DNA from: Rhizobium etli 8C-3 | GTDB lineage: Bacteria > Pseudomonadota > Alphaproteobacteria > Rhizobiales > Rhizobiaceae | Direction of reading: 5' to 3' | Assembly: GCF_001908375.1 (NCBI RefSeq) | Contig: NZ_CP017241.1 | Location: 4,109,501-4,173,500 of the forward strand | Length of the DNA stretch: 64,000 bases | In this document: positions 35,574 to 37,569 of the stretch, one piece after another | Layout of the letters: each line of letters begins with the position of its first letter | Numbering within the stretch: the first letter of the stretch is position 1 | Position numbers and translations under genes: made by a program | Notes under the pieces: generated by a model | Seen by the model: only the letters and a program-made list of their open reading frames with translations | Databases searched by the model: none | Told to the model about the DNA's origin: nothing

Positions 35574-36686
35574 ATGACAGCGCGCAATCTTTTCCTGCTG
35601 CCGGGCGACGGCATCGGTCCGGAGGCAATGGACGAGGTCCGCAAGATCATTGCTTACATGAACGAGGCGATGAACGCCGGATTCGTCGTCGGCGAAGGCC
35701 TTGTCGGCGGCAGTGCCTACGATGCGCATGGCGCGGCCATCTCGGAAGACGACATGAAAAAGGCGCTGGCAGCAGATGCCGTTCTCTTCGGTGCAGTCGG
35801 CGGTCCGAAATGGGACAGCGTGCCCTATGAAGTGCGTCCGGAAGCAGGCCTTCTGCGCCTGCGCAAGGACTTGGAACTCTTCGCAAACCTGCGCCCGGCG
35901 ATCTGCTATCCGGCGCTTGCCTCCGCCTCCTCGTTGAAGCCTGAACTTGTCGAAGGTCTTGACATTCTCATCATCCGCGAGCTCACGGGTGGCGTCTATT
36001 TCGGCGAACCTAAGGAGATTATCGATCTCGGCAACGGCCAGAAACGCGGCATCGATACGCAGGTCTACGATACGTACGAAATCGAACGCATTGCCGGCGT
36101 CGCCTTCGAAATGGCCCGAACCCGCCAGAACCGTGTCTGCTCCATGGAAAAGCGCAACGTCATGAAGTCCGGCGTGCTCTGGAACCAGGTCGTGACCGAG
36201 ACGCACAAAGCAAAGTATTCCGACGTCCAGCTGGAGCATATGCTGGCCGATGCCGGCGGAATGCAGCTGGTGCGCCAGCCGAAGCAGTTCGACGTGATCG
36301 TCACCGACAATCTCTTCGGCGACATGCTTTCGGACGTCGCGGCGATGCTGACGGGTTCGCTTGGCATGCTGCCGTCTGCTTCTCTCGGTGCACCGGATGG
36401 CAAGACAGGCAAACGCAAGGCGCTCTACGAACCGGTCCACGGCTCCGCTCCCGATATCGCCGGCAAGGGCGTCGCCAACCCGATTGCGATGATCGCCTCC
36501 TTCGCCATGTGCCTGCGTTATTCCTTCAACCTCGTGAAGGAAGCCGACGATCTCGAGAAGGCTATTGCCAACGTGCTCGATAAGGGTATCCGCACGGCCG
36601 ACATCATGGCCGAAGGCGCCAGGAAGGTCGGAACTGTTGAAATGGGCCAGGCGATCCTTGCCGAGTTCAAGACGCTTTCTGCCTGA
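35574..36686 (+). CDS. leuB: 3-isopropylmalate dehydrogenase
   Basis: 370 aa, normal length. Motifs: [18 protein letters not shown], substrate loop [33 protein letters not shown], the metal Asp residues in [14 protein letters not shown], and [18 protein letters not shown] (NAD-binding side). It oxidises and decarboxylates 3-isopropylmalate, the step after LeuCD in leucine synthesis. GGAGGG precedes the ATG. A parS-like palindrome starts at the base right after the stop codon. Confidence 0.97.
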
Positions 36687-36702
36687 TATTTCACGTGAAA
36701 CG
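36687..36702. promoter_or_regulatory. parS: Candidate parS (ParB-binding) site
   Basis: TATTTCACGTGAAACG matches the near-universal chromosomal parS 16-mer (TGTTTCACGTGAAACA) at 14 of 16 positions. It contains a perfect 12-base palindrome TTTCACGTGAAA at 36689-36700. It sits directly after the leuB stop codon. parS sites cluster near the replication origin and load ParB for chromosome segregation. The match is seen; binding is inferred. Confidence 0.65.
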
Positions 36703-36709
36703 CTTTTAC

Positions 36710-36744
36710 GCCCTTCGTATCTATCGGTACGGAGGGCTTTTTAT
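36710..36744 (+). terminator. Intrinsic terminator after leuB
   Basis: A ten-base stem with one G-T type mismatch (GCCCTTCGTA / TACGGAGGGC), an eight-base loop and a T-run, just beyond the parS candidate. Confidence 0.75.
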
Positions 36745-36810: not shown

Positions 36811-37569
36811 ATGAGCAATACCGCCGATCAAAAACGGGGCTGCCGATCCTATCTTGGCAAGCGCTACGACGCCCGACGCACGATCCATCGCAGAGTTCCC
36901 TGGAAGGCGTTTACGCTTTCGGCGGTCAATGTCGTCGTCATCGCCTTTTTTGTCTTCGACAGGCCGCTCGGACAGGCAGCCAAGAGCCTCTCGCCTCCCC
37001 TGGTATCGATCGCCGGCGAGGTGACGGATATCGGCCGGCTTGCATGGATCCTTGCGGGGCTTTGCACCATTCTCGCCACCGGTTACGCCGTTCGCCGGCG
37101 GCTTTGGAAAGTCCGCCGCCGGTTCCGCATGGCCTGTTTCGTCCAGATGACAGCCTATGTCGGGCTCTCCGTCATCCTCGCCAGTGTCTGTGCCAACACT
37201 TTGAAGTTCCTGATCGGGCGGGCGCGTCCGCTCATCTACGAGCAGGAGGGCATTTTCAGTTTCTCGCCCTTGAACACGGATTTCCTGCATCAGAGCTTCC
37301 CGTCGGGTCATTCGGCCAACATCGGCGCGCTCTTTGTGGCACTGATCCTCCTCTTTCCCCACGTCAGGCTCATTTTCATCGGTATCGGGCTCTGGCTCGG
37401 TGCAACCCGCATCATCATCGGCGTCCACTATCCGAGCGACGTCGTAGCAGGACTGGCGCTCGGCGCCTGGCTCGCATTTGCCGTCTCGATCCTCTTTGCC
37501 CGCTTCGGCCTGATCTTTGCCGTCGGTCGCGAAGGCTGGCCCGTGCCACGTCTCAGCAGACTCATTTGA
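36811..37569 (+). CDS. PAP2-family phosphatase, integral membrane
   Basis: 252 aa inner-membrane protein with about six helices. The three PAP2 motifs are intact: K132...R139-P140 (KFLIGRARP), P164-S-G-H167 (SFPSGHSAN) and R200...H206...D210 (TRIIIGVHYPSD). It likely removes phosphate from a lipid pyrophosphate or phosphatidic/phosphatidylglycerol phosphate at the periplasmic face. The positively charged N-terminus (RRTIHRRVPWK) is cytoplasmic. The specific lipid substrate is not evident. Confidence 0.9.
   Translation: MSNTADQKRGCRSYLGKRYDARRTIHRRVPWKAFTLSAVNVVVIAFFVFDRPLGQAAKSLSPPLVSIAGEVTDIGRLAWILAGLCTILATGYAVRRRLWKVRRRFRMACFVQMTAYVGLSVILASVCANTLKFLIGRARPLIYEQEGIFSFSPLNTDFLHQSFPSGHSANIGALFVALILLFPHVRLIFIGIGLWLGATRIIIGVHYPSDVVAGLALGAWLAFAVSILFARFGLIFAVGREGWPVPRLSRLI

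Follow-up and report, generated by a model that had tools for sequence, protein, structure and literature searches.

A conserved parS-like site directly after leuB as a putative outlying ParB-binding site in Rhizobium etli 8C-3

The stretch of DNA analyzed here (the window, 64,000 nucleotides) stems from Rhizobium etli 8C-3, the genome of which comprises 7,309,118 bases on four contigs, and covers positions 4109501-4173500 of contig 1 (4,186,145 bases). It contains leuB (Table 1), whose TGA stop codon (36684-36686) directly abuts the 16-mer TATTTCACGTGAAACG starting at position 36687. The 16-bp parS consensus reads TGTTTCACGTGAAACA, and the 16-mer after leuB is identical to it at 14 of 16 positions, the mismatches being located at positions 2 and 16. 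Its right half, CACGTGAAAC, is identical to the consensus, and the left half has A at position 2, where the consensus has G. Within the 16-mer, the uninterrupted 12-base palindrome TTTCACGTGAAA can be read. In all these details, i.e., the 16-mer and its coordinates, the 14/16 match, the palindrome and the start right after the leuB stop, the original prediction was exact. Further downstream and separate from the parS-like site, a hairpin resembling an intrinsic terminator is followed by TTTTTATT. The scan that detected this one hairpin gave a mean of 0.7 in shuffled sequences and is thus not significant on its own. The next gene downstream encodes a PAP2-superfamily protein, for which we found no evidence here of a tie to the segregation system.

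Table 1. Features in the window (window positions) and parS-like sites with up to two mismatches on contig 1 (C1 positions)
Feature	Position	Strand	Basis or remark
leuB, 3-isopropylmalate dehydrogenase	35574..36686	+	NCBIfam TIGR00169, 445.6 bits vs cut-off 353.2
parS-like 16-mer	36687..36702	+	consensus match, genome-wide clustering, conservation after leuB
12-base palindrome	36689..36700	.	read within the 16-mer
Intrinsic-terminator-like hairpin	36710..36737	+	hairpin scan
PAP2-superfamily protein	36811..37569	+	Pfam PF01569, E 2.2e-23
leuB site, 2 mismatches	C1:4146187		directly after leuB stop
Perfect site, 0 mismatches	C1:4179810		inside 5' end of rsmG
TGATTCACGTGAAAC, 1 mismatch	C1:4181767 (L096:8368-8383)		begins with TGA stop codon of mnmE
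TGATTCACGTGAAAC, 1 mismatch	C1:1930 (L097:1930)		begins with TGA stop codon of maf
TGATTCACGTGAAAC, 2 mismatches	C1:40097 (L098:4098)		15 bases past pckA TAG stop

When up to three mismatches to the consensus are allowed, the site after leuB is the sole match within the window. The original prediction had rated a chance match in 64 kb as low, and a mean of just 0.10 matches is indeed expected at this threshold, but nine out of 100 dinucleotide-preserving shuffles contained at least one match, so that the window by itself lends only modest significance to the site. That the leuB site goes beyond chance follows from its clustering with other sites on contig 1 and from its conservation rather than from the match within the window.

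A search of the whole genome with at most two mismatches yielded five matches on contig 1, all of which reside in one arc of 80,070 bases that extends across the contig ends. For uniform and independent placement on a circle, the chance of five sites falling into such an arc is 7e-7. The arc also holds parB, a parA-like gene, rsmG, mnmG, mnmE, rho and hemE. Together with the pckA site, the leuB site is the least consensus-like of the five. Outside of contig 1 a single match is present, TGTTTCGCGTGAAATA with the core CGCGTG (contig 4, 2139541-2139556; L006). A ParB_N protein is encoded on the same contig at position 2251730, some 112 kb away from this match. The match likely arose by chance because a control with the reversed pattern reaches the same rate, with one match in the whole genome at up to two mismatches. 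Exactly three mismatches occur at ten places that are spread over the contigs and look like background, the forward pattern giving a total of 16 matches versus 11 for the control. It had been foreseen that a genome-wide search would not return scattered sites, and this proved correct, with five of five contig-1 matches at up to two mismatches found within 80 kb at parB and hemE. Alphaproteobacterial gene order would place oriC near hemE, at the ends of contig 1, which is presumably circular. The clustering of the five sites around parB and hemE supports an origin-proximal location of the window, which, as far as gene order shows, lies about 40 kb from the inferred origin. The proximity to the origin proposed in the original prediction is therefore borne out by gene order, the leuB site being situated 33.6 kb from the perfect site in rsmG. 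A strict symmetry of the outlying sites, suggested by their distances from the contig ends (leuB -40.0 kb, pckA +40.1 kb), fails in relatives. A third TGATTC-type site, in strain 8C-3 the one near pckA, is present in 13 of 37 same-genus genomes as read by eye, with the neighboring gene assigned in the own genome only.

The T-to-A change at position 3 of TGATTCACGTGAAAC would be explained by the overlapping TGA stop codon alone in the mnmE and maf sites. In all three sites of this type, the change additionally gives rise to GATTC within the ParB half-site, and thus to a GANTC motif as methylated by CcrM. When the rest of the core was held constant and position 3 was any base but T, A was encountered in 54 of 61 matches from the own order, own genome included, in none of four from other orders of the class and in seven of 14 from outside the class; this hand count is based on 46 matched genomes out of 398, comprises related genomes and considers matches anywhere relative to parB. 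A simple methylation explanation is disfavored by the lack of A in the other orders of the class and by the overlap with stop codons.

The best ParB_N protein of the genome is encoded at position 4178008 of contig 1, approximately 31-32 kb to the right of the leuB site and outside the window, and four weaker ones occur elsewhere. Contig 1 encodes another protein with a ParB_N domain (3296658-3296891), far from the parS cluster. At E <= 1e-60, the genome contains one chromosomal ParB of such type. This protein aligns to Caulobacter ParB 6t1f with an E value of 5e-70 and features R, S, K and G at Caulobacter positions 173, 179, 184 and 201, which were located by hand on the alignment and are R, T, A and G in the Caulobacter row, in agreement with PMC7383237. 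All 23 ParBs compared within the genus, the own one among them, show the R-S-K-G combination. Seven other ParBs of the order carry RTKG (four proteins), RTTG, RMKG and RMTG (one each), in a comparison that left out six further ParB matches without a locus. R173 and G201 are described as the parS-reading residues of ParB (PMC7383237), and the cognate chromosomal ParB of strain 8C-3 possesses both. Among the NCBIfam matches listed, none places the parA-like protein above a cut-off.

Conservation was assessed in a set of 37 same-genus genomes, own included, from which one (G003, 82% complete, no leuB match) was dropped. The parS-like site follows leuB in all 36 genomes with leuB, at a distance of 0-115 bases past the stop. 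TATTTCACGTGAAAC, read by eye, occurs exactly once in 32 of the 37 genomes and always after leuB, and the reversed control gave no match in any of them. Four of the five genomes devoid of TATTTCACGTGAAAC have a one-base variant after leuB, and the fifth is G003. Among the 36 sites, TATTTCACGTGAAACA dominates with 27 occurrences, accompanied by variants ending in ACG (five) or starting with TTTTTC (two), TAGTTC (one) and CATTTC (one). The mean entropy per column amounts to 0.08 bits for the site, compared with 1.26 bits for the left flank, a value that partly reflects leuB codons, and 1.70 bits for the right flank. Eleven of the 12 palindrome columns are invariant across the 36 genomes and the first column differs in a single genome. 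The palindrome is thus kept after leuB while the bases downstream drift (0.08 versus about 1.7 bits per column), as anticipated, and across all 36 genomes with leuB, conservation of the site exceeds that of its flanks. In 31 genomes, leuB and the perfect site are on one contig and their positions could be compared; leuB positions of G024, G025, G028 and G036 were taken from the leuB match, and for G014, G027 and G033, in which the variant on the mnmE side is missing, the orientation was deduced from the arrangement. Twenty-six of these genomes are collinear, with the leuB site 31.2-40.4 kb from the perfect site. In the remaining five, leuB is inverted and 82.9-105.1 kb from the perfect site, and the parS-like site has moved along with leuB.

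Beyond the genus, we scanned 300 bases after the stop in the best 80 of 588 confirmed leuB loci. These named loci and the same-genus genomes may overlap and were not summed, related genomes not being independent. A parS site after leuB was detected in 20 of the best 80 loci at up to two and in 21 at up to three mismatches, whereas the reversed motif gave none and no shuffled palindrome out of 100 matched more than one locus. All 20 loci with up to two mismatches have A at position 2. In a leuB tree that combines the window with the best 80 of 588 loci (81 rows), the presence of the site requires two changes. All 21 rows positive at up to two mismatches, window included, fall into one Rhizobium/Agrobacterium group of 22 rows, which has an only moderate branch support of 86, and the odd row of this group, L066, has a site with three mismatches. 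On the Agrobacterium side, L047, L050, L054 and L057 carry TATTTCACGTAAAACA at +239 from the leuB stop, and TACTTCACGTAAAACA is found at +266 in L066; both sequences are imperfect in both halves and keep A at position 2. No site with up to three mismatches is present within 300 bases past the stop in any of the 59 rows outside the group (best 80 of 588), four Sinorhizobium/Ensifer loci among them, implying that the family does not depend on the site in general. The view of leuB-PAP2 as a conserved segregation locus has to be narrowed accordingly: it holds for the leuB site within the Rhizobium/Agrobacterium group and does not extend to the other 59 loci or to PAP2, which none of our results implicates.

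Taking position and conservation together, we regard the leuB site as very probably a genuine chromosomal parS and as a putative nucleation site for chromosomal ParB. Its location between the leuB stop and the terminator-like hairpin would also suit a sequence that acts on leuB or PAP2 and not on segregation, either as the operator of a different transcription factor or as part of the leuB terminator. On contig 1, however, variants with up to two mismatches occur only at rsmG, the mnmE stop, the maf stop and pckA, which is a pattern of position and not of a regulon. The hairpin is separate from the site, and by reasoning a loopless 12-base palindrome would make a poor RNA hairpin, so we consider a role as operator or terminator part very unlikely. 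The site itself was rejected as the intrinsic terminator of leuB, i.e., a G+C-rich stem-loop with a T run, since the hairpin at 36710-36737 is outside of it. Similarly, a Noc-binding site (NBS), which has C for A at half-site position 6, does not match the core CACGTG seen in 36 of 36 genomes. The two mismatches, the 0.10 matches expected in the window and the absence of the site from other groups (best 80 of 588 leuB loci) could be taken to indicate a random near-match or a once functional, neutral remnant devoid of ParB occupancy. Near-invariance in all 36 genomes next to drifting downstream sequence and the retention of the site where leuB is inverted make such an origin extremely unlikely.

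With the leuB site read as a genuine parS, it is an ordinary distal member of a standard ParABS system, in which only the deviation at position 2, which is conserved, comes as a surprise. Across the 36 genomes this position is A in 34 and T in two and is never G or C. Its entropy is 0.31, and none of 60 right-flank columns is equally conserved, their minimum being 1.08. Since the consensus G never occurs, the deviation itself is conserved. An explanation of A at this position as a by-product of the abutting stop codon was rejected: in 12 genomes with the site at least 11 bases downstream, A is found ten times, T twice and G not at all. Several of these have CCTGA, resembling an old leuB stop, at most two bases before the site, so that the 12 genomes do not represent 12 independent moves. 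The deviation may reflect another overlapping constraint, or it may reflect near-equal binding of A and T plus slow turnover; selection for lower affinity is conceivable, though we are doubtful. In light of PMC7383237, it is plausible that a ParB with the R/S/K/G combination would tolerate A at half-site position 1. Tentatively, and rather against our expectation, the Rhizobium parS array could be graded, each kind of site retaining its particular sequence, with a perfect core near parB, variants of the TGATTC type and an A2 half-site after leuB. The latter would be maintained by selection as an outlying site at which ParB loads with half strength, its deviation being functional, and would be readable because the own ParB carries a permissive Lys at position 184. 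A non-consensus base nearly as conserved as the palindrome offers a handle on the question of why bacteria keep parS sites of unequal strength.

From what is established for ParABS biology, ParB-CTP dimers would load at the leuB site, close and slide into the flanking DNA. As ParB from Caulobacter crescentus is reported to spread over about 10 kb (PMC5815017), a distance exceeded by the 33.6 kb to the rsmG site, the leuB site would act as a separate outlying loading point that extends the ParB-covered region of this arm for segregation driven by ParA. Its imperfect left half-site probably makes it a weaker site than the perfect one in rsmG. Its occupancy by ParB could be low because the G-to-A exchange hits a position that distinguishes parS from Noc sites and because the weakest Caulobacter sites are doubted in vivo. 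The leuB site adds a well-conserved and very probable outlying parS to the rhizobial ParABS system. Neither a mapping of rhizobial chromosomal parS sites nor a mention of this position was found among the literature matches listed. We make no claim that the site is unpublished, and no literature was found that names parS, Rhizobium, ParB and leuB together.

The parS sites of C. crescentus resemble those described here in being 16-bp near-palindromes in which the second half, GTGAAA, is conserved among sites (PMC5815017). According to the same source, they differ in affinity, the two weakest perhaps being unlikely to be significant in vivo, and a permissive zone for extra parS sites is centered on the native cluster (PMC5815017). 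The five strongest Caulobacter sites are within 5 kb (PMC5815017), whereas those of R. etli extend over 80 kb, the leuB and pckA sites being the outliers. In Bacillus subtilis, the four strongest parS sites are approximately 5, 13 and 39 kb apart (quoted in PMC5815017), and a site tens of kilobases away is therefore normal; being a Firmicute Spo0J system, it is likened to that of R. etli by spacing alone. Agrobacterium tumefaciens, which belongs to the same order as Rhizobium, has ParB1-parS1 at ori1, with ParB1 enriched at parS1 in ChIP-seq and a parS1 consensus reported as identical to that of B. subtilis (PMC9239152). Half-site positions 1 and 6 distinguish parS from the Noc site NBS (PMC7383237). 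The left half of the leuB site shares A for G at half-site position 1 with NBS but, unlike NBS, the site keeps the parS A at position 6 in both halves, has a right half that is fully parS and is accompanied by a ParB with R173 and G201.
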